A stretch of 64,000 nt of DNA from an uncultured Bacteroidales bacterium (GTDB lineage Bacteria > Bacteroidota > Bacteroidia > Bacteroidales > UBA932): positions 113,037 through 177,036 of the forward strand of contig CALUPB010000005.1 in the NCBI GenBank assembly GCA_944322585.1, written 5' to 3'. The position numbers were made by a program, and so were the translations under genes. This document shows, piece by piece, positions 7,756 to 45,208 of the stretch (its first letter is position 1; each line of letters starts with the position of its first letter). The notes below the pieces were generated by a model that saw only the letters and a list, made by a program, of their open reading frames with translations, was not told the origin of the DNA and made no database searches.

Positions 7756-7851
7756 AATCCGAAATTTTTCCGAATATTACCCGTATTGCCGGGAAACGTA
7801 TACAAGAAAGAGAAAAATGTGGCGAAATTCCTCCATATGACGAAAAAAGAG

Positions 7852-7859
7852 TAAATTTG
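7852..7859 (+). promoter_or_regulatory. Candidate -7 box of the mlaE-mlaF operon
   Basis: TAAATTTG matches the Bacteroidota -7 consensus and lies 25 bp before the mlaE start at 7884, in the 128-bp divergent spacer shared with yifB. No convincing -33 element. Confidence 0.45.
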
Positions 7860-7883
7860 TCATGATGAGGACATCCGGATATT

Positions 7884-8630: not shown

Positions 8631-8667
8631 ATCCGGGAGGAGCCGTTCCGGAGAAATCGCAGACAAT

Positions 8668-27426: not shown

Positions 27427-30400
27427 TTAGAATGTGATGTCAAGTCCGAATGAGAATGATGCTACAGGAGGGGTGGTGATACCTATCTCTCCGAAACCGA
27501 GCTGTTCCGGATCCTGTCCGTTGAGATCCTTGGAGCAGACGAGGAAGAGGTTGTTGCCTTCTAATCTTACATTGGCGGCGCTGATGCGCAGTGCATTGCA
27601 GACTTTCTGCGGGATGGCATAGCGCAGGTACGCCGTACGCAGACGGAGAAAATCGCTTGACACTACCCTCAGGTCGCTCTGGTTGTACATCTGCCATTTG
27701 TTGTTGGCTATCTCTATTTCCCTGTCTCCGAGGAAACCGGTGGACATAGAGAGGTCATCCGTGGAAAGGGCAGGGATTACGGCCCATGCCTCGTCGCCCG
27801 GCTGGCGCCATCTGTTCACGAACTCTCCCGACATGTTCTGCTGGGGGTTAGGCAGTTCCTGTCCCGTGTTGCTGTACAGATTGTTCAGCCTCACCTTGGC
27901 GCCGAGGCTGTACGAGAAGAACAGTCCGAGGGTAAAGTTCCTGTATGAGAACGTGGTGCTGAATCCTCCCTGCATGTCAGGAATACGGTTGCCGGAATAG
28001 GAGAATACCTTGGCATACATGTCCTGTTTGGTGGCGCCTTCAGTTTCCTCGGTATCGAGGAATGTCGGAAGTCCGTCGGCGTCCAGCCCTCCGAACTTGT
28101 AGGAGAAGAACGAGTTTATCGGGTAGCCCTGCAGTACGGCGGATCCGTCCACATACTGCGAATAGGTATATTCATCCTCCATTCCTCCCTGGGTAACGAG
28201 GTTGATGTTCTTGGCCGTGTTGAAAGAGAGAGACCAGGTGAAATCCTTTGTCCTGACGGGTATGGCAGTAAGGACAAACTCGTATCCCTTGTTCATGATG
28301 TCCCCGACATTCAGGCTCATGGAAGATGTTCCGGTGGTCTGGGCCACTTCCACAGACACTATCTGGTCATTGCCTTTCTTGTAATAATACTCGAAGGTTC
28401 CGGAAAGCCTGTTCTCGAAGAGGGAGAAGTCGAGACCTATATTGTATGATACGGTCTTTTCCCATTTCAGGAACGGGTTAGGCAGTTTTGAGAGTGTGGA
28501 AATATAGTCTCCCGATATTTCATCCATGGAGCCGAGCTGGATTATCATGCTCGGGGTCTGGTCATCGGAGACATTTCCCTGGATACCGTACGATCCCCTG
28601 ACGGACAGTTCGTTCATCCACATTACATTTTCGAGGAAAGGCTCGTTCATTATGTTCCATCTTGCCGACACGGACCATATTGGGAGGAATCTCGTGCTCC
28701 GGTCCTGTCCGAACTTGTTGGAGCCGTCGGCCCTGATGTTCCCGTTGATGATATAGCGGGACTTGTAGGCATATGACAGGACACCATACCATGACAGGTA
28801 GTTGGAAAGGCTGTTGGTCACGACATCCGGAGAGTTCATGACCATATCGTTATACAGTGGCCACTGGATCGGGTCTATTGTCACGAATGTCTCTCCCCGG
28901 TCAGGGAGATATCCCCACTGGGTGGTGGAGATCCCGTCATATTTCGTGGAGCGGGCTTCGAATCCTGCTGATCCCGAAATATGGTGTCCCTTGATGTATT
29001 TGCTGTAGTCCAGCTGGAGCCGTGCCGTATAGCCGAAATTCCTTGTCTCTGAGCTTTTGAGCTCTCCTCCGTAAGGCAGGCTGCAGAACTGGTTCCTGAA
29101 AACATCTGTGTCGGGAAGAGTGATGCCATAGTCCAGTCCCCTGAGCTGTGCGGCTGCATAGGTGCGGTCATTGAACCACTCTTTGTCCGAGGTGTTGGAT
29201 GTGTTGAGGGCGAAAGTTCCGGTGGCGCGGAGCCCGTCCCAGATGGCCCATTCGAGATTGGCGTTGAAATACAGGGAATTGCTGTTCACTGTCCTGCCCG
29301 AGTTTGCTATTTCGTTGAGAATGTTGTACTGGAGCGGATTGGCATTGAAGCCCTGCTCTGCGTTGTAGTATGACAGGGTTCCGTCAGAGTTGTATGCAGG
29401 GATGGCCCTTGAGGTATTGTATGCATAGCTGTACGGGGATATGCTGGAATGCTGGTAGTCCTTGTTGGTGATGTTTCCGCGCAACTGGACTGTTCCTGTG
29501 AGCCTGGAGGCCAGTTTTGCCTGTACCTTTGCCATTATGTTGTACTGCTCCAGTCCGGTTCCCCTGACATTGGCATTCTCGTCGGTGTAGGCTCCCGACA
29601 CATAATAGTTGACCTTGTCGTCCGCTCCCGAGATGGAAAGGTTATGCTTGTGTGATACCGAGTTGTGGTAGAGCAGGTCGAACCAGTCCGTGTTCATGGT
29701 CTCGAGAGTCTGCACTCCGGAGAGGAACTGGTCATAGCTGATTTTCCTGTCGTACAGATCGAAGAGCAGGCCTTCGTAACCTACGGCAGCCGGCTCGAAA
29801 CTGTATTCAAGGCCCTTGGCCGCTATCTCCTTGGACACATCGATACGTTCCTTTGAATTCATCAGGTTGAGCTTGTTGTAGCTCGGCCGTTCAGTGACGG
29901 TCACTGTCCCCGAATAGTTGACCCTCGGCCGGCCCATCTTTCCTCTCTTGGTGGTTACCACAATGACACCGTTGGCGGCACGTACACCGTAGATGGCCGT
30001 AGCCGAAGCGTCCTTGAGGACGTCGATCTTTTCGATGTCCATCGGGTTGAGACCCGAGATCGCATTACCTATAAGATTGACATTGTCGAGATTGTTGAGC
30101 ATCTCCGTCGAGATGGAGACGGGGTCGTCGAGTATCACTCCGTCTACGACCCAGAGGGGTTCCCTGTTGCCTGAAATCGTGGATGTTCCCCTGATTCTGA
30201 CTTTCGTGGCTGCTCCCGGGGTAGATGATGAACTCAGGACAGTAAGTCCCGGAATCTTTCCCTGCAGCATGTTGTCCAGGCTCGTCGCATTTGCCTGGAG
30301 TACGTCTTCTCCTGAAATGGAAGCGACAGACGAGGTGGACATCCTCCTGTCTATTCTCTGATAACCGGTGTTGATGATGGCGCCGACCAAAGCGGCCAGC

Positions 30401-30746
30401 TCGTCCTCCATCTCTACTTCATAATAGTCTTTGGTGCATCTGATTTCCTGTGTAAGTTTACCTATGCAGGAAAATACCAGAACCGGGGTTTCCACCCCCC
30501 CGTAGCGACTTGCAGTCTGAATTTCCCGTTGTCGTCAGTCAGGGTTCCGTTGGTCGTTCCCTTGACCATGACGGCAATTCCCGGGGCAGGCTCTCCGTTC
30601 TGGTCAGTGACCGTTCCGGTGACTGTCCTGACGGACTCTCCCTTCCGCTCCTGTGACGATGCGGTGAAAGTAAATGCAGAGAGTGTCGCCAGGATGGCGG
30701 CTATCAGAACGATACTCCGCCCTAAAATCTGTAGGCTCTTGCTCAT
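27427..30746 (-). CDS. SusC/RagA family TonB-dependent receptor, frame broken at a poly-G tract
   Basis: Outer-membrane importer. The first 82 codons (from 30746) encode a signal peptide and most of a carboxypeptidase-like domain (TVTDQNGEPAPGIAVMVKGT, DDNGKFRLQVATGG). The frame then breaks at a run of seven G (seven C at 30495-30501 on the plus strand). Everything after it lies in another frame: TPVLVFSCIGKLTQEI, the plug VLQANATSLDNMLQGKIPG and the full 22-strand barrel. One extra G would restore a normal protein of about 1,106 residues, and the restored junction reads as a standard SusC sequence. The gene may be switched off by slippage, be a recent mutant, or reflect a read error. All other parts look intact. 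Confidence 0.9.
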
Positions 30747-31084: not shown

Positions 31085-31115
31085 TTTGTAAAAATGTTTT
31101 ATTTATCTAAATTTG
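31085..31115 (+). promoter_or_regulatory. Consensus promoter of the plus-strand surface-protein operon
   Basis: TTTG at 31085-31088, a 19-nt spacer and TAAATTTG at 31108-31115 match the full Bacteroidota sigma consensus. The start codon at 31197 would then have a leader of about 75 nt. This is the best promoter in the window. Confidence 0.8.
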
Positions 31116-31196: not shown

Positions 31197-34100
31197 ATGA
31201 AAATCGGAAAATTATTTCTTTGCGTGATTGCATCGGCAGCAGTGCTTGCAGGATGTAAAGAAAAGGAAGAGGATCTCGGAGTGCCGAAGATTTCGGTAAG
31301 CGAGTCTTCTATTGAATTTGATGAAACAGGGGGGGCAGAATTTGCCAGGATTATATCCCTTAATTCATCACGTGACTGGTCGGTTGCCTTCGATCCGGAG
31401 GATGCATCCAAATGGCTGACAGTCACTCCTGACAATGGCGGCGCTTCCGCCGACCCTCAGGAAATCACAATCTATCCTGAACCGAACCCAGGTGTGGACA
31501 GGACCGCCAAAGTTATTTTCTCCACTTCTACAGTCTCTACTGAAATCACTGTGACGCAGGCAGGCGAGATAGGGGACGCCAATGTGTATTTCAATGATTT
31601 CGACAAGACTCCTGCAGAAAAAACTTATGGAAATGAGGGCAAGAGCTGGCCATATCTCGATCAGTCGGATTGCTGGCAGAACCAGACCGGTTCCGGCGCG
31701 TCTTCAGTGACTTACGGGTATGCAAGTGCATCGGCCAGAAATAACCTTCCTTCGAACGAGGGTAATTACGAAGGTTCCGGCGTAAACAATATTCTGTTCG
31801 GTTCATCGTCCTATTTCCAGGTAAGCAATATCACCCTTGACGGGGAAAATCTGAATTATACTCTTTCTTTCGGTACGATCAGAAATGAATACGAAGCCGA
31901 AGACAATACTTTCAATCCGGAAGAATTCCATGTCTATATAAGCGATACCGGCGAGAAGTGGGTAGAACTCGAATATGCTTTCGCCGACGGTTTCCAGGAT
32001 GACACATGGGACCTCGCGTCGTCGACATTCACTGTACCGGAAGGGACGAAGGCCCTGTATCTGTATTTCACTTCGGATATTGCAAGCAGTCATCGTATAG
32101 ATGACCTTTCTCTCGCAATTTCCGTCGAAGAAGGAACCAAGATAGACTTCTCCCAGGGTGTCGAGATCGGCCCGGGCGGTGGAGACGATCCGGCTCCGGT
32201 ACCTGACGATGCCGTTTACTACAATGATTTCGACAAGGAGGCAGCAACGGAAGGCAGCACTGGATGGCCATATGCAGACAGTTTCGATGGAGCACGAAAT
32301 GACCAGGGGACAGGAGCAGGCTCAGTAACATTCGAGAGTTATAACACATCTGTCCGGACTTCCGGCGCTTCCGATTCTCATTCGGATTATGCCGGTTCCG
32401 GAACCAATAACATTTTCTTCGGGAAAGACAATGCATGGTTCCGTATAAATAATATAACCCTTGACGGCTCTGTGAGCGATTACACTTTGTCATTCGGATC
32501 AGAGAAATTCGGATACGATATTGACAATACTTTCAATCCGGAAGAATTCAAGGTGTATTTGAGTGATGACGGTGAAAAATGGGTCGAGATAGAGTATGCT
32601 TTTCCTGAAGGCTTTAAGGAAGCCACGTGGGATCTTGCTTCATTCACATTTACCGTTCCGTCGGGGACAACGGCTCTTTATATCCATTTTACGGCCAGTG
32701 TTGCAAGTGTATACAGAATTGATGATGTATCACTCGTACCTTCAGAGACGGCCGGCACTTCAATCGACTTTTCTGCCGGTGGTCCTATCGGAGGCGGAGA
32801 GGTTACTCCGAGCCTTTCGGTAGATCCTGAGAACCAGAATGTTGCGGCAGAGGGAGGTGACTATACCTTTACTGTGACTGCTTCTGAAGGAGTGACATGG
32901 CAGGCCACTACTGATGTTGAGTATGTTACAATCAAGGATTTGACCACAGTGACCGGGAACGGAACGGTCGAGGTGAGTGTTCTTCCTAATGAAGGTGAAG
33001 CCAGAACCGCCACGATTACGATTGCTTCAACGGATGCAAATGACGGGGTCTCACCGGTAACCGTGACGATAAATCAGGCCGGGGCCGGTCCTGTGGAGGG
33101 TATGACAATAGAACAGGTATGGGCTGCTGCAGATGGCGATAATGTGACAACCGGAGAGGTACAGGTGGTTGCGAAGACGAAATCCGGTTTCCTTATTTCC
33201 GATGAGACGGGAAGTATATATGTCTATGGTTCCAATGCGGCCGGGCAGGTAGCCATCGGAGACATGATAAGTCTTTCCGGAGAACGTGATGAGTATAATG
33301 GCCTTCATCAGATCCGGGCATCGGAAGTCATGCCGGCAGGGTCAGGCCAGGTTTCATATCCTGCCCCGACAGAGTATACTGCCGACAATGCATCCGAACT
33401 GTCAGGAACCACTGATGTCGTGTATATTACATATGAGGGAGAACTGTCCGTCAGCGGCAATTATGTAAATGTGGAACTTGTAGGAGCAAGCAGTTCCACT
33501 CCGACTATGAGCCTGTATTATCTTCCGGATTCTTTCAATGCCGATGGAATGAATGGCAAGATGGTAAAGGTTACCGGATATTATATTTATACGAGCGGAG
33601 GCAGATACCTGAATACGATTGTGACTGCATTGGAAGAATCGACCACTCCGTATCTTAACCTTTCGGAGACGATGAAGAATGTCGGTGCGGCTGCCGGGTC
33701 GTTCACATTCAATGTCTCATCGAATGTAGATTGGACTGTATCGTCTTCGGATGCGACCAATTTCTCTGTTGATCCCGCATCCGGTTCAAATGACGGTACC
33801 GTTACCGTGACATATACGGAAAATACGGGGACTGATGTAAGGCCGGCAACCATTACCGTAACATACGGCAGCGAAAGCAAGACCTTGACTGTAAACCAGT
33901 CTGCACCGCTTCCGGCAGGCAGTAACTGGACTTTAGTGACATCGGCGTCAGACATAACTACAGGAGGTGAATATGTGATTTTATGTGATTTCTCTAATGT
34001 GTCCGGGAAATCAGGAGTATGGGCTCTTAATACGGCTGAAGCTACAACCAAAGGCAGTGCGGGGGCAACAGACATATCCACAGTTGGCATGACAGAATCT

Positions 34101-34430
34101 TCCGGTATTCTGGAAGGAGTGACAGATGATTATGTATGGACTTTCACGGCAAGTGGAGATGGATTTACTATTAATCCTAAGACTAATGCAGCACTCGGAT
34201 TGGGTTCAATAGCAGATAATAACGGATTGAGGGTAAATACAGACAGTAAAGATCAGGTATGGCAATTGACTGATGTTTCAGATTCATGGGGTTGGGAAAT
34301 CATGACGCAAGATAGTGGAGGAGATTCCCGATATCTCTGTGGATACGAAACTGATAACTGGAGAACTTACAAAGCTATAAATTCATGTCAGACCAAGAAT
34401 TGGACTATTAGGATCTATAAATTAAATTAA
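31197..34430 (+). CDS. Multidomain surface lipoprotein: BACON, two choice-of-anchor-J-like modules, OB-fold
   Basis: 1,077 residues. The lipoprotein signal VIASAAVLAGCKEK fixes the ATG at 31197 over the open frame from 31155. In order: a BACON-like domain (about residues 30-125) and two tandem homologous modules of about 195 residues. Each module starts VYFNDFDK or VYYNDFDK and contains DNTFNPEEF and a late RIDDLSL or RIDDVSL, as in choice-of-anchor-J domains. Then come a second BACON (ending VTINQAG), an OB-fold/DUF5689-like domain (VWAAADGDNVTTGEVQVVAK), a third BACON (ending LTVNQSA) and an unassigned C-terminal domain. BACON domains bind glycans or act as spacers; OB-folds often bind nucleic acid. 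Followed by a terminator, then the nuclease gene. Domain names rest on pattern recognition. Confidence 0.8.
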   Translation: MKIGKLFLCVIASAAVLAGCKEKEEDLGVPKISVSESSIEFDETGGAEFARIISLNSSRDWSVAFDPEDASKWLTVTPDNGGASADPQEITIYPEPNPGVDRTAKVIFSTSTVSTEITVTQAGEIGDANVYFNDFDKTPAEKTYGNEGKSWPYLDQSDCWQNQTGSGASSVTYGYASASARNNLPSNEGNYEGSGVNNILFGSSSYFQVSNITLDGENLNYTLSFGTIRNEYEAEDNTFNPEEFHVYISDTGEKWVELEYAFADGFQDDTWDLASSTFTVPEGTKALYLYFTSDIASSHRIDDLSLAISVEEGTKIDFSQGVEIGPGGGDDPAPVPDDAVYYNDFDKEAATEGSTGWPYADSFDGARNDQGTGAGSVTFESYNTSVRTSGASDSHSDYAGSGTNNIFFGKDNAWFRINNITLDGSVSDYTLSFGSEKFGYDIDNTFNPEEFKVYLSDDGEKWVEIEYAFPEGFKEATWDLASFTFTVPSGTTALYIHFTASVASVYRIDDVSLVPSETAGTSIDFSAGGPIGGGEVTPSLSVDPENQNVAAEGGDYTFTVTASEGVTWQATTDVEYVTIKDLTTVTGNGTVEVSVLPNEGEARTATITIASTDANDGVSPVTVTINQAGAGPVEGMTIEQVWAAADGDNVTTGEVQVVAKTKSGFLISDETGSIYVYGSNAAGQVAIGDMISLSGERDEYNGLHQIRASEVMPAGSGQVSYPAPTEYTADNASELSGTTDVVYITYEGELSVSGNYVNVELVGASSSTPTMSLYYLPDSFNADGMNGKMVKVTGYYIYTSGGRYLNTIVTALEESTTPYLNLSETMKNVGAAAGSFTFNVSSNVDWTVSSSDATNFSVDPASGSNDGTVTVTYTENTGTDVRPATITVTYGSESKTLTVNQSAPLPAGSNWTLVTSASDITTGGEYVILCDFSNVSGKSGVWALNTAEATTKGSAGATDISTVGMTESSGILEGVTDDYVWTFTASGDGFTINPKTNAALGLGSIADNNGLRVNTDSKDQVWQLTDVSDSWGWEIMTQDSGGDSRYLCGYETDNWRTYKAINSCQTKNWTIRIYKLN

Positions 34431-34450
34431 GCCAAGATTGTATTAATATT

Positions 34451-34485
34451 CCAAAGGGAAGTCCGGAATACGGACTCCCCTTTGG
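34451..34485 (+). terminator. Terminator or attenuator after the surface lipoprotein
   Basis: A 15-bp stem with one mismatch (34451-34465 with 34471-34485), a 5-nt loop and a following T-rich stretch, 20 bp after the stop. The nuclease gene starts 31 bp later with no clear promoter, so partial read-through is likely. Confidence 0.75.
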
Positions 34486-34516
34486 TTTCTCTAATAACAT
34501 TGTTTGTATCAGTAAA

Positions 34517-35701
34517 TTGAAAAAATTTCTTTTATATTTTTCATTGCTCGGGCTTATCCTTTCTTCGGGTTCTTGCGAGAAGCAGCTGAAGGGAGACATT
34601 GCCGTGTCGGTGGCGAGGTCTGAGGCAGATAGCGGGGCCGGAAGCCATATAGTGACGGTCAGGGCAGAGGGGGAATGGTTCCTGTCCCTGTATTTTGCGG
34701 ACGGGGCCGAGCCTTGGGCCGAGTTGAGCGAAACCCAGGGGAGCGGTAACAGCAGCAGGGTGATCCTCAAGTATGGGGAGAACACATCCTACAGTTCAAG
34801 GTCCGTGATGCTCATCCTTACAAGTGCAGGGCAGGATGTGTCCTGCACGTTTGTCCAGGACGGTATTCCGAGTGAAGAGGATCCTGACCCTGATCCAGGC
34901 GGAGGCGGTGAATCCGATTCGTCAGCGGCACCGGGCTGGATGGAGCTTCCTGCCATGAGCGAAGAGGACGGTCTCAGGTTCGTGACGCACGATATGACTG
35001 TAGGCGGCATCAGGACAAGAAACTATTCCCTGTATTGGGACAAAGACAATCTTGTTGCCCACTGGGTGGCTTATCCGCTGAACAACTGGACTATCGGCAC
35101 CGAGGATGTCGGGCGTACGGATGCATGGGGATACGACCCGGAGATACCGCGCGACGAACAGCCGAGACTTGACAGAGGATTCGGCGGCAACGGTTATGAC
35201 AGGGGGCATCAGATCCCTTCCGCCGACAGGCAGAACCGTGCCTCCAACCGCGAGACTTTCTATTTTTCGAACATGACACCGCAGATCGGAGCCGGTTTCA
35301 ACCAGAATATCTGGGCGAAATTCGAGGAGACAGTACGTTCATGGGCCGGCAGGTCGGACACTCTTTATGTCGTGACCGGCTGTGTCGTGGAAGGAAGTAC
35401 TAAGTATGCGACCGATAATGACGGGGAGAGGGTCACGGTTCCGGTAGGATATTTCAAGGCATTCCTGAGATATCAGAGGAATTCTACTATCGGATTTGCC
35501 GATTATGCAGGAGCGGCATTTTATCTTGAGCATAGAACCTATTCGGAAAACAACGTTACTCAAGATATGTCCATGTCTATCGATGATCTGGAAAAATTGA
35601 CGGGCATAGACTTTTTCGTAAACCTTCCTGACGCGATAGGTGAGACGGCAGCGGCCAATGTGGAGAAACAGTCTCCGGCTTCAGTCGGATGGTGGTGGTG
35701 A
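34517..35701 (+). CDS. DNA/RNA non-specific endonuclease lipoprotein (NUC1/DRGH family)
   Basis: Cuts DNA and RNA without sequence specificity, here probably on the cell surface or outside. The active site DRGHQIPSADRQNR holds the catalytic histidine, and the metal-binding Asn region FYFSNMTPQIGAGFNQNIW is present. A lipoprotein signal MKKFLLYFSLLGLILSSGSC starts at a TTG codon (34517); no in-frame ATG gives a signal peptide. Residues 27-118 look like a BACON-type module with the typical ending VSCTFVQDG. An acidic, Gly-rich linker (DPDPDPGGGG) joins it to the nuclease. Length 394. Second gene of the plus-strand block. Confidence 0.92.
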   Translation: MKKFLLYFSLLGLILSSGSCEKQLKGDIAVSVARSEADSGAGSHIVTVRAEGEWFLSLYFADGAEPWAELSETQGSGNSSRVILKYGENTSYSSRSVMLILTSAGQDVSCTFVQDGIPSEEDPDPDPGGGGESDSSAAPGWMELPAMSEEDGLRFVTHDMTVGGIRTRNYSLYWDKDNLVAHWVAYPLNNWTIGTEDVGRTDAWGYDPEIPRDEQPRLDRGFGGNGYDRGHQIPSADRQNRASNRETFYFSNMTPQIGAGFNQNIWAKFEETVRSWAGRSDTLYVVTGCVVEGSTKYATDNDGERVTVPVGYFKAFLRYQRNSTIGFADYAGAAFYLEHRTYSENNVTQDMSMSIDDLEKLTGIDFFVNLPDAIGETAAANVEKQSPASVGWWW

Positions 35702-35794
35702 CGCAGAGCCGACAGTAAAGGGCATTTGCGGGAGATGCCGGACATGTCGCAGAGTATTACAGTATGAAAATGATTGATGACTAATAATAATCCA

Positions 35795-36871
35795 ATGAAA
35801 AAAATCCTGAATGCAATTCTCCTGTTTTTGCTGGTTGTCCCTGTGGCAACGGCGCAGACAGACGGGCGGAACAAGACATTTGTGGTCGGATTCTATAACC
35901 TTGAAAACCTTTTCGACATCTATGACGACCCGGCCAAACATGACGAGGAATTCCTTCCAGACGGTAAAAATCAGTGGACGGAAGTGAAATATCAGAAGAA
36001 ACTGCACAATATCGCTACGGTTATACAGTCAATGGCAAAGACTAACGGACGGTTCCACACGCTTCTCGGTGTCAGTGAGATAGAGAACCGGCTCGTTCTT
36101 GAGGATTTGGTGAGTCAGCCTGAAATAGCAGCGGCAAACTACCAGATAGTGCATTACGACGGACCTGATGCGAGAGGCGTGGATGTGGCCCTCCTTTACA
36201 GACCGGATAATTTCAAATTCATTGACAGTGAGTCTATCCCGTTTGATTTCCACAGCGGAACCATTGAGTTTGCAATGGAAGGCGAGGACAGGGCTTCTTT
36301 CAAGACAAGGGATATTCTAATGGTGCACGGACTGCTTGACGGTGAAGAGTTTGCCGTATATGTAGCCCATCTCCCGTCCCGTATCGGAGGCAAGGGCTGG
36401 GATCTGAGGAGCCGCGGGGCCGAGATTATCTACGGTCATGCGCAGAAGATGATGGAGAAATATCCGGGTATCAAGGTTGTCGTGATGGGTGACATGAATG
36501 ACAATCCGTATGACAGAAGTATGGTGGAATTCCTGCACAGCAAGGAAAATCCGCAGGATGTCGGACAGGATGATTTCTTCTCTCCGTTCTGGTCGATGCT
36601 GAAAGCAGGATACGGGTCCCTTGCATATCAGGGAGTATGGAACATATATGACATTATCCTTGTGAATGAAGCTCTCCTGAATTCTCCGGACGGCGGTGTG
36701 AAAATCCGTCCTGTGGGGAAGAAAGGGTTCTATGGCGTCGTCTATAAGAAGCCGTTCATGATCACCCAGTCGGGCCAGTACAAAGGGACTCCGTTCAGAA
36801 CCTTTTCCAACGGATCGTTTATCGGAGGATACAGCGATCATTTACCGACTTATATAGTGCTGGAAAAATAG
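35795..36871 (+). CDS. Secreted endonuclease/exonuclease/phosphatase family protein
   Basis: 358 residues. The ATG at 35795 gives a clean signal peptide (MKKILNAILLFLLVVPVATAQ), preferred over 35774. EEP-fold motifs are in order: VGFYNLENLFD with the metal-site Asn, LLGVSEIENR with the metal-binding Glu, VYVAHLPSR, VVVMGDMNDNP, and a terminal SDHLP with the catalytic Asp-His. Members of this fold cut DNA, RNA, nucleotides or phospholipids. Its position between a nuclease and a TonB receptor favours a role on nucleic acid or nucleotides. It lies 93 bp after the nuclease stop. Confidence 0.9.
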   Translation: MKKILNAILLFLLVVPVATAQTDGRNKTFVVGFYNLENLFDIYDDPAKHDEEFLPDGKNQWTEVKYQKKLHNIATVIQSMAKTNGRFHTLLGVSEIENRLVLEDLVSQPEIAAANYQIVHYDGPDARGVDVALLYRPDNFKFIDSESIPFDFHSGTIEFAMEGEDRASFKTRDILMVHGLLDGEEFAVYVAHLPSRIGGKGWDLRSRGAEIIYGHAQKMMEKYPGIKVVVMGDMNDNPYDRSMVEFLHSKENPQDVGQDDFFSPFWSMLKAGYGSLAYQGVWNIYDIILVNEALLNSPDGGVKIRPVGKKGFYGVVYKKPFMITQSGQYKGTPFRTFSNGSFIGGYSDHLPTYIVLEK

Positions 36872-36964
36872 GATTCCGGTCTTCAGGACTGTATGCAATG
36901 CATACGGGAAGACTGTAATGTCAGAATTCAAAATCTGCATGTGGAAATGTTTAAATTGAATAAT

Positions 36965-39900
36965 ATGTGTAAAAAACTATTGGCAATACTTCTTGCAGCC
37001 GTATTCGCTCTGCCGGCATTTGCCCAGACAGATACCAAGAAGACCTACAAGGGGCGGCTGGAAGTGTATGAGAATCTTGTCAAGGACAACAAGGGCGGGG
37101 TTGAAGGAACGGTAGTGAACAGGAGCGGACGTGTTCCGGTAGCTGATGCCATGCTCACCCTTTACAGGGGCGAGACCGTAGTCCTGAAAGGTTATTCCGA
37201 TACGGACGGATATTTTCTGTTTGAAAATCTTCCGAACGGTATCTACAGAATGACTGTGTCGGCGGCCGGATTCGAACCGTCCGTAGTCAATGTGACGGTC
37301 GAAGGATTTATGAAGGATCTGATGTTCGTGTCACTTGTGGCTTCGCAGACAGTGACATCCGAACTTGATGAATCCAATTTTGCCGAGTTCGACATGATTG
37401 ATTCTGGTTATGATGATTCACCTTCAATCCTTTACGGGAATGATGTCTATACCAACATCGCCGGTTACGATTTCAGCTCTGTACGTTTCAAGAACAGGGG
37501 ATACAACAGCGAGACCCAGGATGTCTATCTGAGCGGTATCAGGATGAATGACGCATTGACCGGATATACGCCGTGGTCCCTGTGGAGCGGGTTGAACGAA
37601 GCCATGAGGAGCAAGGAGACCACAATAGGAGTGGAGCCGTCGGACTATGGGTTCGGAGGGTATAACGGAGTGACGAACATCCTTGCCACGCCTTCTTCCG
37701 TGAGGCCCGGATGGAGATTCAGCCTTCTGACCAACAGTGCCCTGTACAGGTTGAGGCTTATGGCCACGTATGCTTCCGGCCAGCTTGACAACGGGTGGTC
37801 TTATGCATTCAACGTGTCGGCCCGTCTCGGCGGCAATGACTGGGTGCAGGGTGTCTATTACAGATCGTTCGCCTATTATGCTGGAGTGGAGAAGAAGTTC
37901 GGCGACGAGCACAGGCTCAGCCTCATGGTGTTCGCCACGCCGGGACAGAGAGGGGCCCAGAACGCGTCCACGCAGGAGGTATATGACCTTGTAGGAAGCA
38001 ATACCTACAACTCCAACTGGGGTTATCAGAACGGCAAGATGCGCAATGCCCGTGTCCGCAATACCCATGAACCTGTGATGGTCCTGAAGTACACTGCCAA
38101 TCCTCTTGAGAACCTTGAAGCTTCCGCGACCATCCTCTACAGGACAGGAAAGAACGGCTACACCGCCCTTGACTGGTATGATGCGCAGGATCCGAGACCG
38201 GACTATTACCGCTATCTCCCAAGCTATTTCTATATAGAGAATGATGATTATGACAGAGTGGATCAGACCAAATTCGGGTGGGCTACGGAGGCTTGGCAGT
38301 ACAATATCAACAATACGCAGCATATCAACTGGGACCGTCTCTATAATATCAACTATAACAATTTTGTCAACGGAACTGACCGGACACGTTCCAAGTATAT
38401 CCAGGAGGAGCGCAGGACTGACCAGAATGACCTCAATTTCAACGCAAGCGTAAAGTGGAGGGCAAGCAGCCTGTTCACACTCACAGGCGGCGTGGACTAT
38501 AAATGGAACAGGACTGAATATTACAAGAGGGTCAATGACTTGCTTGGAGGAGACTATTATCTCAATATAGACCAGTTTGCCGAAAGGGACTTCGCATCTG
38601 ATGCGGCCAAGATACAGAATGATCTGGATTATTATCTTGCCAACGGAGCTGCGCAGGAACTTGTCAAGGGCGACAAGTACAGCTATGACTATTATGCCAA
38701 TGTCCGCAGGGCGAACATATGGGCGAACGGGAATTTCTCTGCCGGAGCGTTCAAGGGATATGTGGCAGCTGAGGCCGGGTATACGAAGTTCTGGAGGGAC
38801 GGTCTGCTCAGAAAAGGTCTGTTTGCCGGCCTGAATGATGACGGTACCGAGATTGTAAGTCCTGTAACGAATGAAGTCCTTACTTCCTATGACAGCAACG
38901 GGGATGTGATAACTTCCAAAGGGCGGTCTAAGGTGGCTGATTTCTTCACATGGTCGGTAAAGGGCGGTGCCAGCTGGTTCTTTACCGGCGGACATAGAGT
39001 ATATGCCAATGTGGGTTATTTCAACGATGCACCTACCTTTTCCCAGGCTTTCGTGTCTCCGAGGACAAGGAATACCCTAATTCCTAATCTTACGACTACC
39101 AAGACCTTCTCTGCTGATGTCAATTATACCTACTCGAACAACGGTTATGACATCCGCGTGACCGGATTCTACACCAAGATAAATGACCAGACCGATGTCA
39201 TGAGTTTCTATGATGACTCCCAGAATTCATTCACCAATTTTGCCATGAGCGGCATAGATCAGAGGCATATGGGTGTTGAACTCGGATTTAAGGTGCCTTT
39301 GCCTCTTGACGGGCTTTCGTTGCAGGGAGTGTTGAGTTGGGGTGAGTATGTCTATACTTCCAACCCGCGGATGACCCAGACAGTGGATAATAGTGCGGAG
39401 GTGGTGTTCGACAATGCCATTGTCCCGTACTGGATGAGCCATCCTGTATATGCAAAGGATATTGACGGGGTGTATCTGACTGATGATGAAGGCAACTATA
39501 TAGTGGATAAGAACCAGAAACATTATGTGCCGAGTACACCTCAGTTGGCAGCGAGTCTCGGATTCAATTACCGCTTGCCTACCTATTGGTTCTTTGAATT
39601 GAATGCCAATTATTTCGACAAGGCATATCTTGACATGAACCCTCTTTACAGAACGGATCTTGCGGTTCAGGGTATGGACGGGAATGCATCTCCGGTTGAA
39701 ATCGAATATATGGCTGCCCAGGAGAAATTCGATCCGGTTTTTCTTCTCAATGCAAGTGTCGGGAAATCCTGGTATATAGACCGCAAATACAATTTCGGAT
39801 TCTCTCTTGAAATAAAGAACATTCTCAATAACCGTAATGTCAAGACTGGAGGTTATGAACAAACCCGCCTTATTGACAGTGCAAGCGGGGAGAGATATTA

Positions 39901-39970
39901 CCGGTTCGACCCGAAATATTTCTATATGAGCGGGATAAACTATATGTTGAATCTTTATTTCAGATTTTAG
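36965..39970 (+). CDS. TonB-dependent receptor with carboxypeptidase-like N-terminal domain
   Basis: 1,001 residues. The ATG at 36965 gives MCKKLLAILLAAVFALPAFAQ, a signal peptide; the frame is open to 36893. A carboxypeptidase regulatory-like domain (about 37-115; TDGYFLFENLPNGIYRMTVSAAGFEP) precedes a plug-like region and a barrel ending in NYMLNLYFRF, with a terminal Phe. It lacks the SusC plug signature and has no SusD next to it, so it is a different importer class from the receptor at 27427. It is followed by a DUF5689 lipoprotein, its probable surface partner. Confidence 0.9.
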   Translation: MCKKLLAILLAAVFALPAFAQTDTKKTYKGRLEVYENLVKDNKGGVEGTVVNRSGRVPVADAMLTLYRGETVVLKGYSDTDGYFLFENLPNGIYRMTVSAAGFEPSVVNVTVEGFMKDLMFVSLVASQTVTSELDESNFAEFDMIDSGYDDSPSILYGNDVYTNIAGYDFSSVRFKNRGYNSETQDVYLSGIRMNDALTGYTPWSLWSGLNEAMRSKETTIGVEPSDYGFGGYNGVTNILATPSSVRPGWRFSLLTNSALYRLRLMATYASGQLDNGWSYAFNVSARLGGNDWVQGVYYRSFAYYAGVEKKFGDEHRLSLMVFATPGQRGAQNASTQEVYDLVGSNTYNSNWGYQNGKMRNARVRNTHEPVMVLKYTANPLENLEASATILYRTGKNGYTALDWYDAQDPRPDYYRYLPSYFYIENDDYDRVDQTKFGWATEAWQYNINNTQHINWDRLYNINYNNFVNGTDRTRSKYIQEERRTDQNDLNFNASVKWRASSLFTLTGGVDYKWNRTEYYKRVNDLLGGDYYLNIDQFAERDFASDAAKIQNDLDYYLANGAAQELVKGDKYSYDYYANVRRANIWANGNFSAGAFKGYVAAEAGYTKFWRDGLLRKGLFAGLNDDGTEIVSPVTNEVLTSYDSNGDVITSKGRSKVADFFTWSVKGGASWFFTGGHRVYANVGYFNDAPTFSQAFVSPRTRNTLIPNLTTTKTFSADVNYTYSNNGYDIRVTGFYTKINDQTDVMSFYDDSQNSFTNFAMSGIDQRHMGVELGFKVPLPLDGLSLQGVLSWGEYVYTSNPRMTQTVDNSAEVVFDNAIVPYWMSHPVYAKDIDGVYLTDDEGNYIVDKNQKHYVPSTPQLAASLGFNYRLPTYWFFELNANYFDKAYLDMNPLYRTDLAVQGMDGNASPVEIEYMAAQEKFDPVFLLNASVGKSWYIDRKYNFGFSLEIKNILNNRNVKTGGYEQTRLIDSASGERYYRFDPKYFYMSGINYMLNLYFRF

Positions 39971-40034
39971 GGAGAGCCTTGATTTTCAAGACATTTTCCT
40001 GAAATCGTGAGATGAATTAAAATGATCGGAAAAC

Positions 40035-41102
40035 ATGAATAGAATGATAAAGAATATTATTCTGCTTGCAGGAGGAGTCGTCCTTGCATTGTCTGCCATG
40101 TCGTGCGATGAGTTCCCTCCTGTGAAATATGATGATCCTGAGCCGTATAAAGTCTATACGGATGCGGATTTCCCGGGTGTCACTTTCACATCTGTCGCTG
40201 ATCTGAAGGCAATGTACGAAGGTGAGCCGGTCGAAATACGCAGGGATGTTTACATCAAGGCTCAGGTCAATTCTTCAGACCAGTCCGGTAATCTGTACAG
40301 GACTATGTATGTACAGGATGCGACGGGGGGCATAGAAGTCAAGATGGGGACAAGGAATCTCTACAATGAATACAAGTTCGGACAATGGGTTTACATAAAC
40401 TGTAACGGACTGTCTGTCGGGGATTACAACGGCATGGTAGGCCTTGGATACAAGTCTGCCGATCCCAAGTATGAGACTGCATATATCGATTCTCAATATA
40501 TTATAGATACTCATATATTCCGTGGTGAACCGGGAAAATTGGAGCCTATACTTATAGACGAAGCGGGGATAACAGCAAAAGATAATTATGGGCGATACGT
40601 CACAGTCTCCGGTCTGACATATGGCAACCAGATTTTCGCTATCCTGTATAAGGATCCGAATGCCGAACACGAAGGAGACAACAGATGGTTCCTGTCGTAT
40701 GATCCGAGTTATGACGGACCTGTCAATACTTATGGAAATTTCGGCATAGATACATGGGCCATTTCGGAGACAGGCTTCCAGAAACTTCTTGATGATCCGG
40801 ATTTCGATTTCAACGGAGCCATACCGTGTGAAGATATTCAGAGCAAGTCGGAGTTCGTGGCTCCATATTCATACAGTGTCAGTCAGTATTTCAGAAAAGG
40901 CAGTACGGATCTGCAGGTACGATCAAGCGGATATGCACGTTTTGCGGATACGAGGATTGATCAGGAGATACTTGACGGAGCGACGGTCAATCTGACCGGT
41001 ATCCTTACTTATTACAACAGCGGTTCGGGAGCCAATTATCAGATGATACTCAACGATCTCAATGGCGTTGAGATAGTCGGATCCGACGGTGCCGGTGAGT
41101 AG
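40035..41102 (+). CDS. DUF5689 domain lipoprotein
   Basis: 355 residues with a lipoprotein signal (VVLALSAMSCDEF). The first half (DVYIKAQVNSSDQSGNLYRTMYVQDATGGIEVK) has the beta pattern of the DUF5689 OB-like fold. A second similar fold follows (YVTVSGLTYGNQIFAILYKD ... VNLTGILTYYNSGSGANYQMILND). Last gene of the plus-strand block, 64 bp after the TonB receptor and before a strong terminator. Likely a surface binding protein for that receptor; ligand unknown. Confidence 0.8.
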   Translation: MNRMIKNIILLAGGVVLALSAMSCDEFPPVKYDDPEPYKVYTDADFPGVTFTSVADLKAMYEGEPVEIRRDVYIKAQVNSSDQSGNLYRTMYVQDATGGIEVKMGTRNLYNEYKFGQWVYINCNGLSVGDYNGMVGLGYKSADPKYETAYIDSQYIIDTHIFRGEPGKLEPILIDEAGITAKDNYGRYVTVSGLTYGNQIFAILYKDPNAEHEGDNRWFLSYDPSYDGPVNTYGNFGIDTWAISETGFQKLLDDPDFDFNGAIPCEDIQSKSEFVAPYSYSVSQYFRKGSTDLQVRSSGYARFADTRIDQEILDGATVNLTGILTYYNSGSGANYQMILNDLNGVEIVGSDGAGE

Positions 41103-41192: not shown

Positions 41193-41224
41193 ATCCGCGT
41201 CCTTTTCCGGGCGCGGATTTTTTT
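41193..41224 (+). terminator. Strong intrinsic terminator of the nuclease/TonB operon
   Basis: ATCCGCG (41193-41199) pairs with CGCGGAT (41212-41218) and is followed at once by seven T. It closes the plus-strand block. Confidence 0.85.
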
Positions 41225-41356
41225 GATGGCGGATATATGCGGTGAAGAGGCCTTGTGGAAGTATATCGGAAATATTTGCTATCTTTGACGATGCCATATA
41301 CGGGCGGTCCTCTGCCCATACTCCGGACCATATACGACCCGATAAAACGAAAAACC

Positions 41357-42964
41357 ATGAAATTCCCTATCGGTATACAGACATTCGAACAAATTATAGA
41401 CGACGGATATGTCTACGTCGACAAGACAGCCCTGATTCATGAACTTGTGCATTCAGGTAAGATCTATTTCCTAAGCCGTCCGAGACGGTTCGGGAAAAGC
41501 CTGCTGGTATCCACACTGAAGGCCTATTTCCAGGGGAAGAAAGAGTATTTCAAAGGGCTTGCCATCGACAGCCTCGAAAAGGACTGGGCGGAGTATCCGG
41601 TGTTTCATATGGACTTCAACGGGGATGACTTCACTAAACCCGGCACACTGGAGCAGAAGATAGAGGGCTATGTATCCAACTGGGAGTCTGTCTATGGGAA
41701 CAATCCCCTCTGGACTACTGTCGGAGACAGGTTCGCCCATGTCCTGTCACAGGCCCACAGGAAGTACGGACGCCGCTGTGTGGTGCTCATAGACGAATAC
41801 AACAAGCCCATTCTGGATGTGCTGGACACGGGGATACGCACAAAAGCAGGAGATGAGGAGATGCTTCTTGAGGAGAGGAACCGGGAGGTTCTGAAAGGGT
41901 TCTATTCCGTGTTCAAGGCCGCCGATGCGGACCTTCAGTTCGTGCTGCTGACAGGAGTGACGAAGTTCTCGCAAGTGAGCATGTTCAGCGGGTTCAACCA
42001 GCCTGCGGACATCAGCATGGATGCCCGTTATGAAACATTGTGCGGCATCACCCAGGATGAACTGGAGCAATATTTTGCAGAGCCGATACGGGATATGGCG
42101 AAGAAATACGGTGAAGACGAAGGAGCCATGAAAGAGCAACTTAAACAGCACTATGATGGTTATCATTTCAGTACAGGGATGACCGATGTCTACAATCCAT
42201 TCAGTCTCCTTAATGCCTTTGCCCAGCAGGAGATACAGGACTATTGGTTCCGGAGCGGCACGCCGTCATATCTGATCCGCCTGATGAACCATACTGACGA
42301 GAATCTGGACGAGCTGACAGGGAAATACTATGAGCCGCAGGAATTCATCGACTACAAGGCCGATGTGGAGAAGCCTCTCCCGATGATATATCAGAGCGGG
42401 TATCTGACCATAAAGGACTACAGACTCAAACGTGGAACTTTCCTGCTTGACTTTCCTAACAACGAGGTCAAGAAAGGGCTCGTGACTCTGGTGGCTGCGG
42501 ATTATCTGAAACCGAAGAATGAAAGTGTCGGCAGCTGGATTCAGCAGGTGATTGATGCCCTGGAAGACGGCAATACAGGGGATCTTCGCAAACTGTTCAC
42601 ATCTTTCCTTGCCAGCATCCCGTACACCATGCGGAGGAAGCAGGACGAGGTGGAGAGGGAAAGGTATTTCCATTATACCTTCTACCTGATTTTCCGGATG
42701 ATAAGCGTCTACACGGTATATACGGAGAAGCAGCAGAGCGAGGGCCGTGTGGACTGCATAGTGGAGACCGACGGCTATGTGTATATCTTCGAGTTCAAGC
42801 TGGACGGCACCGCAGACGAAGCCCTCCGGCAGATAGAAGAGAAGGGGTATGCCCGCCCTTACGAAGCGGATCCGCGTCAGGTCTTCCGTATCGGGGCCGG
42901 CTTCTCCTCCCAGACCGGCACTGTCTCCGACTGGGAATGCGTTATTTCTGCCGGACAATCATAG
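41357..42964 (+). CDS. AAA-ATPase-like protein with PD-(D/E)XK nuclease domain (DUF1703)
   Basis: 535 residues. The ATG at 41357 gives MKFPIGIQTFEQIIDDGYVYVDKT, the standard family start. The P-loop RRFGKSLLVSTL is near residue 46, and the Walker B-type VVLIDEYNKPILD follows. The C-terminal part has YVYIFEFKLDGTADEAL, the E-x-K half of a PD-(D/E)XK site. Such genes are abundant, often multi-copy, in Bacteroidales; their role is not known to me (defence or selfish DNA have been suggested). Stands alone between a terminator and the M3 peptidase gene. Confidence 0.9.
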   Translation: MKFPIGIQTFEQIIDDGYVYVDKTALIHELVHSGKIYFLSRPRRFGKSLLVSTLKAYFQGKKEYFKGLAIDSLEKDWAEYPVFHMDFNGDDFTKPGTLEQKIEGYVSNWESVYGNNPLWTTVGDRFAHVLSQAHRKYGRRCVVLIDEYNKPILDVLDTGIRTKAGDEEMLLEERNREVLKGFYSVFKAADADLQFVLLTGVTKFSQVSMFSGFNQPADISMDARYETLCGITQDELEQYFAEPIRDMAKKYGEDEGAMKEQLKQHYDGYHFSTGMTDVYNPFSLLNAFAQQEIQDYWFRSGTPSYLIRLMNHTDENLDELTGKYYEPQEFIDYKADVEKPLPMIYQSGYLTIKDYRLKRGTFLLDFPNNEVKKGLVTLVAADYLKPKNESVGSWIQQVIDALEDGNTGDLRKLFTSFLASIPYTMRRKQDEVERERYFHYTFYLIFRMISVYTVYTEKQQSEGRVDCIVETDGYVYIFEFKLDGTADEALRQIEEKGYARPYEADPRQVFRIGAGFSSQTGTVSDWECVISAGQS

Positions 42965-43132: not shown

Positions 43133-45208
43133 ATGAAACGGATAATTATAATTTTGGCGATGATGATGTCAATGGCCGGGTGTAACAAGGTGAATCCTTT
43201 CCTGTTCGAGTGGAAGTCCAACTATGGAATGCCGCCGTTCGACGAGATCAGGGAGGGCCAGTATGTGTTGGCCGTAAAAATGGGTATAAGGCAGCAGGCG
43301 TCGGATGTGGATGCCATAATCGCAAATGGCGAGGAACCTACCTTCGAGAATACCATAGCTGCATATGACCGTTCAGGAGGGACTCTCGACAGAGTGACCG
43401 GAGTACTGTTCAACCTTTCGGAGACCGACGGTACGCCGTCCATGCAGAAGATAGTGGAAAGAGTCCTTCCGATGCTGTCTGAGCACAACGACAATATTTT
43501 CATGAATCCGTATTTCTTCGACAGGGTGAAATATCTCTATGAACGGAAGGATACTCTCGGTCTTACACGGGAGCAGGAGATGGTGCTGGACAGGATTTAT
43601 GACAATTTCGTGAACAACGGCATTTCCCTCGATGAAGCCGGGCAGGCGAGGATGAGGGAGATAAACCAGGAGCTCTCCTCCCTTACCTACAGGTTCGGGA
43701 ACAATCTTCTTGCAGAGAACAATGCCTTTGCCGACCGGTTCGGGATTTCCGTGTCGGAATACGTCTCCGAGATGGCTTCCTGCAGCGACAGGGCAAGACG
43801 GGAAGAGATGTTCAGGGCATATTCCTCACGCGGTAACAATGGCAACAGAAATGATACCAAAAGGCTGATACTCGATATAATGCGTCTGAGAATAGAAAAG
43901 GCGCAACTTCTCGGTTACGGAACCCCGGCAGACCAGATACTTTCGGATAAGATGGCGCATGATGCGGCTACGGTCAATGCGTTCCTCGGAAAGATTTTCA
44001 CACCTGCCGTTGCGCGGGCAGAGGAAGAGATTGCAGACATGCAGGCGATTATGGACGAGGATGTGGCAGCAGGTCTGCTTCCGGACGATTCCACTTCCGT
44101 TATCAGGCCTTGGGACTGGTTCTATTATGCCGAAAAGGTGAGGGAACGCAAATATTCCCTCAATGAGGCGGAGACAAAGCCGTATTTCAGAATGGAAAAT
44201 GTGCGGGAAGGGGTATTTGCCAATGCGCACAGGCTTTACGGCCTGAATTTCGAGAAACTCGACAGTGTGCAGGTCTATCATCCTGACGTAGAGGCTTTCC
44301 GAGTGACGGATTCCGACGGGACTCTGATAGGGTATCTTATGACCGACTATTTCCCGCGCAGTACCAAGCGTGGCGGGGCATGGATGAACAATTTCCTGCC
44401 GCAGTATGTGGACAGACACGGGGATGACCACCGTCCTGTGATAGTCAATGTAGGCAATTTCTCGAAGCCGTCTGGCGATACTCCGGCATTGCTCACACTC
44501 GATGAGGTGGGGACTATGTTCCATGAGTTCGGCCACGCCCTTCACGGACTGCTCAGCCAATGCACCTACAAGACTGTCAGCGGTACTTCCGTAGCCCGTG
44601 ATTTCGTGGAACTTCCGTCTCAGATCAATGAGAACTGGGCTTTCCGGCCTGAAGTCCTGGCTACATATGCAAGGCATTATCAGACCGGTGAGGTAATTCC
44701 GGATTCGTTAGTGGCGAAGATAAATGCCGCATCGAAGTTCAACCAGGGTTTCATGACTACAGAACTTGCTGCAGCCGCCATCCTTGACATGAAATGGCAT
44801 GAACTCACGTCGGTGGAGGTGCAGCCGGACTGTCCGTATGCATCGGATATTGCAGCCGGAGACGGCATGAGACTTATCGATCCTGTCAAATTCGAGGAAT
44901 ATGTCTGCAGGCAGATGGGACTTATAGACGAGATCATTCCGCGTTACAGGACAACCTATTTCAATCATATCTTCAACAGCGGTTATGCAGCCGGCTATTA
45001 CAGCTATCTCTGGGCGGAAGTCCTGGACAAGGATGCTTTCGAACTGTTCATGAAAAGAGGCATTTTCGACAGAAGGACAGCCATGTCCTTCAGACATAAT
45101 ATCCTGGAAAAAGGTGGCAGTGAAGATCCGATGGTGCTCTACAGACGTTTCCGCGGAGCCGATCCTGATCCTGCCGCTCTTCTTCGTGCCCGCGGACTGG
45201 CCGACTGA
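43133..45208 (+). CDS. dcp: M3 family metallopeptidase, peptidyl-dipeptidase Dcp type
   Basis: Removes dipeptides from the C-terminus of oligopeptides. 691 residues; the zinc site HEFGHALHGLLS supplies two His and the catalytic Glu, and INENW supplies the third ligand. A lipoprotein signal (MMSMAGCNK) puts it in the periplasm or at a membrane. The N-terminal helical half (PFDEIREGQYVLAVKMGIRQQ) is typical of Dcp. Single gene with its own promoter. Confidence 0.92.
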   Translation: MKRIIIILAMMMSMAGCNKVNPFLFEWKSNYGMPPFDEIREGQYVLAVKMGIRQQASDVDAIIANGEEPTFENTIAAYDRSGGTLDRVTGVLFNLSETDGTPSMQKIVERVLPMLSEHNDNIFMNPYFFDRVKYLYERKDTLGLTREQEMVLDRIYDNFVNNGISLDEAGQARMREINQELSSLTYRFGNNLLAENNAFADRFGISVSEYVSEMASCSDRARREEMFRAYSSRGNNGNRNDTKRLILDIMRLRIEKAQLLGYGTPADQILSDKMAHDAATVNAFLGKIFTPAVARAEEEIADMQAIMDEDVAAGLLPDDSTSVIRPWDWFYYAEKVRERKYSLNEAETKPYFRMENVREGVFANAHRLYGLNFEKLDSVQVYHPDVEAFRVTDSDGTLIGYLMTDYFPRSTKRGGAWMNNFLPQYVDRHGDDHRPVIVNVGNFSKPSGDTPALLTLDEVGTMFHEFGHALHGLLSQCTYKTVSGTSVARDFVELPSQINENWAFRPEVLATYARHYQTGEVIPDSLVAKINAASKFNQGFMTTELAAAAILDMKWHELTSVEVQPDCPYASDIAAGDGMRLIDPVKFEEYVCRQMGLIDEIIPRYRTTYFNHIFNSGYAAGYYSYLWAEVLDKDAFELFMKRGIFDRRTAMSFRHNILEKGGSEDPMVLYRRFRGADPDPAALLRARGLAD

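Follow-up and report, generated by a model that had tools for sequence, protein, structure and literature searches.

A candidate TonB-dependent DNA import operon in a Bacteroidales genus and its relatives across the class

Genes and transcription signals of the block

A 64,000-nucleotide stretch of contig CALUPB010000005.1, from an uncultured Bacteroidales bacterium (assembly GCA_944322585.1) and called the window here, carries at positions 31197-41102 a block of five plus-strand genes that is considered below as a candidate system for the import of extracellular DNA. The genes encode, in order, a BACON lipoprotein (g1), an Endonuclease_NS nuclease (g2), an EEP enzyme (g3), a TonB-dependent receptor (g4) and a DUF5689 lipoprotein (g5). 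An earlier interpretation made from the letters alone (the sequence-only reading) had proposed this gene set, its order and the shared strand, and all three are borne out by open reading frames (ORFs) and Pfam matches.

The first gene, g1 (31197-34430), encodes a lipoprotein of 1077 residues with the lipobox LAGC, three BACON domains (Pfam, 5.9e-25) and an OB-like stretch. Its residues 661-756 (96 residues) match the ExeM/NucH model NF033681 weakly, at 24 bits against a cut-off of 300, and with a score below the cut-off g1 is not assigned to that family. The product of g2 (34517-35701; Pfam, 3.9e-43) is a predicted lipid-anchored nuclease of the DRGH type with a weak BACON-like N-terminus. It contains both DRGH and NMTPQ...N, and with them the catalytic His and the Asn region of the domain, and it matches solved nucleases of the family in sequence with a best E of 3e-16. 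The EEP enzyme, a nuclease or phosphatase of the Exo_endo_phos_3 family, is encoded by g3 (35774-36871; Pfam, 1.3e-90). The sequence-only reading had described it as secreted; the EEP fold stands, and the signal peptide is a plain one, by which a periplasmic location is more likely than secretion. The receptor g4 (36947-39970; longest ORF from 36893) has a CarboxypepD_reg domain (2.7e-11) and a TonB barrel (5.7e-7) and belongs to class I as defined below. It is followed on the same strand, after less than 70 bp, by g5 (40035-41102; Pfam, 4.9e-41), a DUF5689 lipoprotein with a predicted tandem OB fold. The lipoboxes of g1 and g2 were found by a crude pattern, which missed g5, though a Cys sits there at the expected place (SAMSC).

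The block resembles polysaccharide utilization loci of the SusCD type in combining an outer-membrane receptor, surface lipoproteins and degrading enzymes in one operon. It differs from them in that Pfam finds no SusD among the five genes, as the sequence-only reading had also said, that the five include no glycan enzymes, and that g4 lies outside the SusC model family (no match to TIGR04056 at E ≤ 0.01). The SusD gene at 25901-27415 sits on the opposite strand, and the divergent neighbour at 27427-30495 matches TIGR04056 at 2e-193. With no SusD in the block and a receptor outside the SusC model, a SusCD glycan locus was rejected.

Bacteroides promoters follow a -33/-7 pattern, TTTG-N(17-22)-TAnnTTTG. 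The only match to this pattern in the 64 kb lies on the plus strand at 31085-31115 (TTTG-N19-TAAATTTG), 81 bp before g1, which agrees with the promoter that had been proposed in front of the block. The chance expectation is 0.61 matches in the window, and because 48 of 100 shuffles also had at least one match, the evidential value lies in the place of the match and not in its mere presence. Behind g5, the proposed terminator is found on the plus strand at 41193-41218 as a predicted intrinsic terminator with a 10-pair stem followed by TTTTTT. Neither Rfam at gathering score nor a tRNA scan gave a match in the 64-kb window.

Conservation within the genus

The receptor was searched for in 120 genomes of the window's genus with a completeness of at least 90%, at E ≤ 1e-100. 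It is present in 100 of these, with a single match in each, and 20 gave no match. Loci were then compared from 25 other genomes of the genus with a full receptor match, making 26 with the window. In all 26, the EEP gene lies directly upstream of the receptor on the same strand and the DUF5689 gene lies directly downstream, an order that exceeds chance. By both measures, the co-conservation that the sequence-only reading had set as a condition for its proposal is observed. Endonuclease_NS is a separate gene in 25 of the 26 loci, and a BACON protein is seen in 24, the two misses (L025 and L037) being loci that end at contig edges. In 20 of the 25 fetched loci, a gene for an M3 peptidase follows the DUF5689 gene on the same strand with a gap of at most 52 bases; these 20 include L041, where the peptidase gene is in two pieces, and L027, where it overlaps by start call. 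The peptidase gene is 2.9 kb from the DUF5689 gene in L030, and none is shown in L024, L029, L031 or L034. In the window, the gene for the M3 peptidase lipoprotein (43133-45208, plus strand; Pfam, 5.3e-123) is displaced from g5.

Three further observations concern copies and fusions of these genes. The locus that lacks a separate nuclease gene, L029, encodes BACON and Endonuclease_NS fused in one protein of 826 residues (6345-8822). Genome G027 (78% complete) has two full-length receptor matches, and the second contig (L241 1-7533, contig 59) carries the same five-gene block, which is either a real copy or contamination. The window genome also has a second DUF5689 gene away from the block (L062, G000:C27:869-1456), in a frame of 731 residues.

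The gap between g1 and g2 contains a hairpin (34451-34485, plus strand) that could be an attenuator, a processing site or a weak terminator. The minimum free energy is -27.9 kcal/mol for 34425-34510 (z -4.66), and the hairpin is followed by the T-rich tail TTTCTCTA, with five T in eight bases. A strong hairpin, of differing sequence, is found in all five loci of the genus, the window included, in which the g1-g2 gap is at least 74 bp. These features would suit an arrangement in which the hairpin separates most transcription of g1 from g2-g5, such that the block is not one unit. That arrangement is quite unlikely, given that the terminator scan did not pick this hairpin, that the gap is at most 18 bp in 17 of 23 measurable loci of the genus (and 38 to 90 bp in the other six), and that the BACON-nuclease fusion of L029 exists. 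The g1 gene probably belongs to the unit, and the hairpin could then serve as an attenuator or a processing site.

Receptor classes and spread across the class

Receptors were split by profile score, with our own cut at 500 bits, into class I and class II. A tree with 42 receptors of class I and 19 of class II separates the two with a support of 99, and in it the window receptor groups with the receptor RA0C_RS04915 of Riemerella anatipestifer, likewise with a support of 99. Among class-I loci with room for the neighbour, which are not independent, given that many are from Chryseobacterium and that at least two pairs (L141/L155 and L111/L171) share a genome, 129 of 135 have a same-strand DUF5689 gene no more than 1.5 kb downstream, and 120 of 133 have an EEP gene no more than 2 kb upstream. 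Four of the six DUF5689 misses (L151, L179, L185 and L192, but not L052 and L097) do carry the gene with a start call that overlaps the receptor, which corrects the count to 133 of 135. Some loci, such as L104, have an extra small ORF between receptor and DUF5689. Of the 120 upstream EEP genes, 26 are co-directional, all from the window's genus, and 94 are divergent. The 13 loci without one are L052, L094, L097, L106-L109, L116-L118, L120, L149 and L198, and in L149 the EEP gene is downstream instead.

Class-II loci show a different neighbourhood: in 18 full-length loci with room, none has DUF5689 downstream and none has an EEP gene upstream within these distances. The class-II locus L126 has an EEP gene about 1.2 kb downstream of the receptor. 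The remaining class-II hits, L204 and L216, are broken pieces of class-I genes; in L204, from Chryseobacterium angstadtii, the reading frame of a class-I receptor is broken into two ORFs.

Of 198 genomes drawn evenly from the phylum, 63 had any receptor match at E ≤ 1e-30 and 28 had class I by score (the window included, and G167 in two pieces), counts that are lower bounds because four candidates were scored per genome. All 28 belong to the window's class, in which 27 of 48 genomes besides the window have a class-I receptor, and genomes outside the class have only scores in the class-II range. In the family that holds Riemerella, Chryseobacterium and Elizabethkingia, 141 of 148 genomes carry the receptor at E ≤ 1e-100. 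In the window's own order, with one genome for each family, a match was counted as class I in 8 of 24 other families, one of which (G044) was not fetched. The core of EEP, receptor and DUF5689 genes spans the class. A scan of viral_contigs with a Weeksellaceae receptor as query gave no match.

Genes beyond the core vary. In L095, L096, L099 and L115, the core pair has a methyltransferase gene or one of the HSP90 family behind it. In a scan of 10 neighbours, the DUF6359, methyltransferase, HSP90, primase and carbamoyl-phosphate synthase genes found downstream of some core loci had a lineage-specific look, and they were set aside without a count.

Orthologues required for transformation in Riemerella

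The core pair has a described function in one species. In R. anatipestifer, markerless deletion of RA0C_RS04915, an outer-membrane protein with a CarboxypepD_reg domain, or of RA0C_RS04920, a DUF5689 protein, reduces natural transformation from a wild-type level of 5.4e-5 to below detection, as described in the available part of the report (PMC8459023). According to that part, pilus homologues were not found in Riemerella, and the authors call the step from duplex to single strand unknown (PMC8459023). There, RA0C_RS04910 has a single main-text mention, as an upstream control of transcription, and it is absent from Table 2 of mutants (PMC8459023). The order recA...comEC...EEP-receptor-DUF5689 in genome G308 agrees with the locus tags RS04870, RS04895, RS04910, RS04915 and RS04920, and by this gene order RA0C_RS04910 is the predicted EEP gene. 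A named R. anatipestifer record (L155) has the receptor, DUF5689 and a divergent EEP gene, and at the thresholds used G308 and the window genome (G000) have one class-I receptor each.

Compared with the Riemerella proteins, g4 is 29% identical over 979 columns (E 4e-108), g5 is 35% identical over 103 columns (E 4e-11) and g3 is 30% identical over 410 columns (E 7e-57). The two systems share an orthologous class-I receptor, then DUF5689 on the same strand, and an adjoining EEP gene. The window differs by a co-directional EEP gene inside the operon, by the surface DRGH nuclease and the BACON lipoprotein and, in relatives, by the M3 peptidase; its proteins are about 30% identical to those of Riemerella, and the function of its system is a predicted one. 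The sequence-only reading had offered the block as an undescribed system. That claim falls for the core pair, which is already known in Flavobacteriaceae as transformation genes. What is already known is that the pair is required for transformation in one species; what is new is that this pair is tied to an EEP/receptor/DUF5689 locus found across the class, as well as to extended operons. A literature search that fell short of most subscription journals found nothing on DUF5689 beyond PMC8459023.

Two further findings in Riemerella bear on the same function. In three genomes of one genus, comEC is close to the receptor, at a distance of up to about 5 kb in G308 and G322 and of 12 kb in G258. 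According to the available part of a second report, tonBA and tonBB mutants transform less well, and a tbfA mutant does not (PMC8383284).

Nucleases and ComEC

The nuclease families of the block keep their motifs to differing extents. Of the 127 EEP-model hits above 350 bits, all keep GDxND and 126 keep SDHxP, and the median isoelectric point (pI) is 5.7 in the genus versus 9.1 outside it. In the g2 family (25 members, the window included), RGHQ is present in all 25, the Asn pattern in 21 and the D of DRGH in five.

No lactamase_B domain was found at E ≤ 0.01 in the 20 ComEC proteins scanned. DUF4131 is present in all nine from outside the genus, Riemerella included, and is not reported in any of the 11 from the window's genus. 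These 11 proteins (L144 3439-4911 and L223-L232) are permease-only, with neither DUF4131 nor lactamase_B. The window genome has this short comEC along with dprA and an HHH-repeat protein, and G029 and G030 have the same short ComEC and no receptor. A search for DprA was positive in all 20 genomes covered, and one for ComEC in 56 of 57.

Entry nucleases of other bacteria offer a comparison. As described in the available parts of the sources, pneumococcal EndA degrades the non-transported strand where ComEC is without an active domain (PMC12455585), and Moraxella NucM is a DRGH entry nuclease (PMC6384898). Like g2, EndA and NucM are DRGH nucleases that are predicted to be membrane-anchored; unlike them, g2 is a predicted Bacteroidota surface lipoprotein encoded within a receptor operon, and the likeness is one of family, the sequences not having been compared. 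With ComEC lacking a nuclease domain, the EEP enzyme beside the receptor is, by this analogy, a candidate for the missing nuclease, and g2 is a candidate for a surface entry nuclease. For the DNase BT3563 of B. thetaiotaomicron biofilm work, no link to a receptor is shown in the available part of the source (PMC11078008).

These comparisons could be taken to mean that the block is dedicated to natural transformation, with g2 as an entry nuclease of the EndA/NucM type and the EEP enzyme in place of the nuclease domain that ComEC lacks. The 20 ComEC proteins without lactamase_B, the absence of DUF4131 in 11 of them, the precedents of EndA and NucM, and the presence of DprA and the HHH-repeat protein in the window genome would all fit. 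However, the short form of ComEC seen in the genus may be a degenerate one, it also occurs in G029 and G030, which have no receptor, and DprA and ComEC are so common in the genomes searched that their presence says little. A role in transformation alone is considered doubtful.

A second extended operon in Elizabethkingia

Genome G330, from Elizabethkingia, has a second class-I operon on one strand (L149, 4803-14330) in addition to an ordinary core copy. It encodes, in order, fimbrillin-like plus Endonuclease_NS, fimbrillin-like, a class-I receptor, DUF5689, EEP and a peptidase of the clostripain family, a gene content known from L149 alone. Among six genomes of this Elizabethkingia-type genus, G302, G318 and G330 have two receptors, two genomes have one and G349 has none. 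In the tree, the second-copy receptor is placed away from its own family and beside receptors from two families in the window's order.

The operon is like the block of the window and its relatives in having Endonuclease_NS, receptor, DUF5689, EEP and peptidase on a single strand. It differs in having fimbrillin-like proteins rather than BACON, a peptidase of the clostripain family rather than M3, and another gene order, and it is a second copy beside a core locus. Two lineages have assembled the same kit separately, with different gene orders, adhesins and peptidase families. These separate assemblies are the strongest evidence that the surface nuclease, EEP, receptor and DUF5689 act together. 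The coexistence of both forms in G330 hints at a further task of the extended form, other than transformation.

A nutritional role is one option. The surface nuclease would digest extracellular DNA or nucleoprotein, the receptor would import oligonucleotides, the EEP enzyme would free nucleosides and phosphate, and the peptidase would handle bound protein, with transformation in Riemerella as a by-product. EEP enzymes can be phosphatases, and what sets the extended, co-directional form apart is a surface nuclease, joined by a peptidase in both lineages seen. With this operon, and with both forms present in Elizabethkingia, the nutritional reading remains a live option. Scavenging alone is nonetheless rather unlikely: Pfam finds no gene for nucleoside transport or salvage among the five genes or the M3 and AAA neighbours, and the core is linked to transformation by genetics in the available part of PMC8459023 and lies near comEC in Riemerella. 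For the core, transformation is the better-anchored function.

Predicted structures of the receptor and its partner

The AlphaFold model of the receptor (mean pLDDT 88.7) has PqqU, YncD, Fiu, FecA and FhuA as its best folds in the PDB and leans toward TonB-dependent transporters. By sequence, the receptor profile matched only carboxypeptidase-like domains in the PDB, and no PDB sequence relatives were found for g5 (E ≤ 0.1) or g3 (E ≤ 0.001).

The model of g5 (mean pLDDT 84.7) gave 525 fold hits at E ≤ 10, of which 11 reach 0.001. Each of the best 50 of the 525 is a chain from a protein or complex that handles DNA. RADX with single-stranded DNA, a repair complex (9pd4, unnamed chain), RPA and CST head these hits, which also include many HIN-200 domains as well as POT1, BRCA2 and MCM. 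Solved structures with tandem OB folds are mostly those of nucleic-acid binders, and therefore this list is suggestive only. The model is suggestive of a tandem OB fold with a lean to nucleic acid.

The ligand could be something else, such as a peptide, a glycan or a nucleotide cofactor, with the nucleases incidental or acting on other phosphodiesters. BACON domains are usual in glycan loci, the surface proteins are acidic, and the receptor genes are linked to an M3 peptidase gene. Another ligand is still judged unlikely, given that there is no glycoside hydrolase or SusD among the five genes and that two nuclease families are linked with the receptor in two separately assembled operons.

A proposed pilus-free route for DNA import

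The reading that we favor, and consider moderately probable, is that the unit imports nucleic acid: the block would be a pilus-free, TonB-energized import machine for extracellular DNA at the outer membrane. The scavenging-only and transformation-only alternatives are the two halves of this reading taken as exclusive, and within it the chances are about even that scavenging of DNA or nucleoprotein, or else transformation, is the main benefit here. The sequence-only reading had proposed capture and import of nucleic acid. Import remains the best reading, and is now better supported, since the Riemerella orthologues are each essential for transformation (PMC8459023). Import of fragments or nucleosides as food, by analogy to glycan loci, is a conjecture.

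In the proposed mechanism, the BACON/OB-like and DUF5689 lipoproteins would hold DNA at the cell surface, where the lipid-anchored DRGH nuclease would nick or cut it in the manner of an entry nuclease. At the surface, DUF5689 would partner the class-I receptor, which would pass DNA or its fragments into the periplasm, and there the EEP nuclease would trim the DNA or remove the non-transported strand. ComEC, DprA and RecA could then take up the remainder, with the rest being salvaged. It is inferred that DNA is what the window receptor binds, which way the cargo travels, that the system sits at the surface, and what each nuclease does.

Several points weigh against import of DNA. With an identity of about 30% to the Riemerella proteins and a long stem (1.09) leading to the genus in the tree, a change of ligand would be possible. 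Among the genomes compared, by eye, comEC is near the receptor only in those of the Riemerella genus. The transformation defects in Riemerella could be indirect, and in the available part of their report the authors ascribe the tonBB effect to iron (PMC8383284). Named Flavobacterium records (L209-L211, L213, L214 and L218) carry the receptor-DUF5689 pair, and Flavobacterium johnsoniae is not transformable in the laboratory according to the available part of PMC7965970. The fold hits of g5 have TM-scores of 0.15-0.30 by query and at most 0.41 by target, with large root-mean-square deviations; with scores this low, the hits are taken as a lean of a tandem OB fold to nucleic acid and not as proof. 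OB folds bind other ligands too. A receptor barrel with its plug in place leaves little room for duplex DNA. Both g5 (pI 4.37) and g1 (pI 4.05) are acidic, unlike typical DNA binders, as is the Riemerella DUF5689 protein (pI 5.4). A peptidase accompanies both extended forms, and g1 may be partly transcribed apart from the rest. No data on ligand, binding or transport were found for class-I receptors.

A broader proposal is put forward tentatively, as a possibility. Bacteroidota may have a pilus-free importer of their own, in which a dedicated TonB-dependent receptor, a tandem-OB DNA-binding surface partner and an EEP nuclease replace the type IV pilus, the secretin and the nuclease domain of ComEC. 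The widespread core form would serve transformation, the extended operons, with surface nuclease and peptidase, would harvest extracellular DNA or nucleoprotein, and the block in the window would represent an extended form shared by its genus. On the passage of DNA through the outer membrane of Bacteroidota, a lone genetic result is now linked to a locus conserved across the class. The analysis names the neighboring EEP nuclease gene, predicts a tandem OB fold for DUF5689 and adds the extended operons of a large genus. If true, the proposal would account for one way in which genes are transferred, or DNA is used as food, in dense communities.

Neighboring genes in the window

Between g5 and the M3 peptidase gene, at 41255-42964, lies a gene with AAA-ATPase_like and PDDEXK_9 domains, which looks like an insertion between genes that are adjacent in 20 of the 25 relatives. 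On the other side of the block, the SusC-like receptor gene on the minus strand (27427-30746) reads as a pair of ORFs, 30462-30746 and 27427-30495, that lie in different frames and overlap at a run of seven G, the result of either an assembly error or a switched-off gene.

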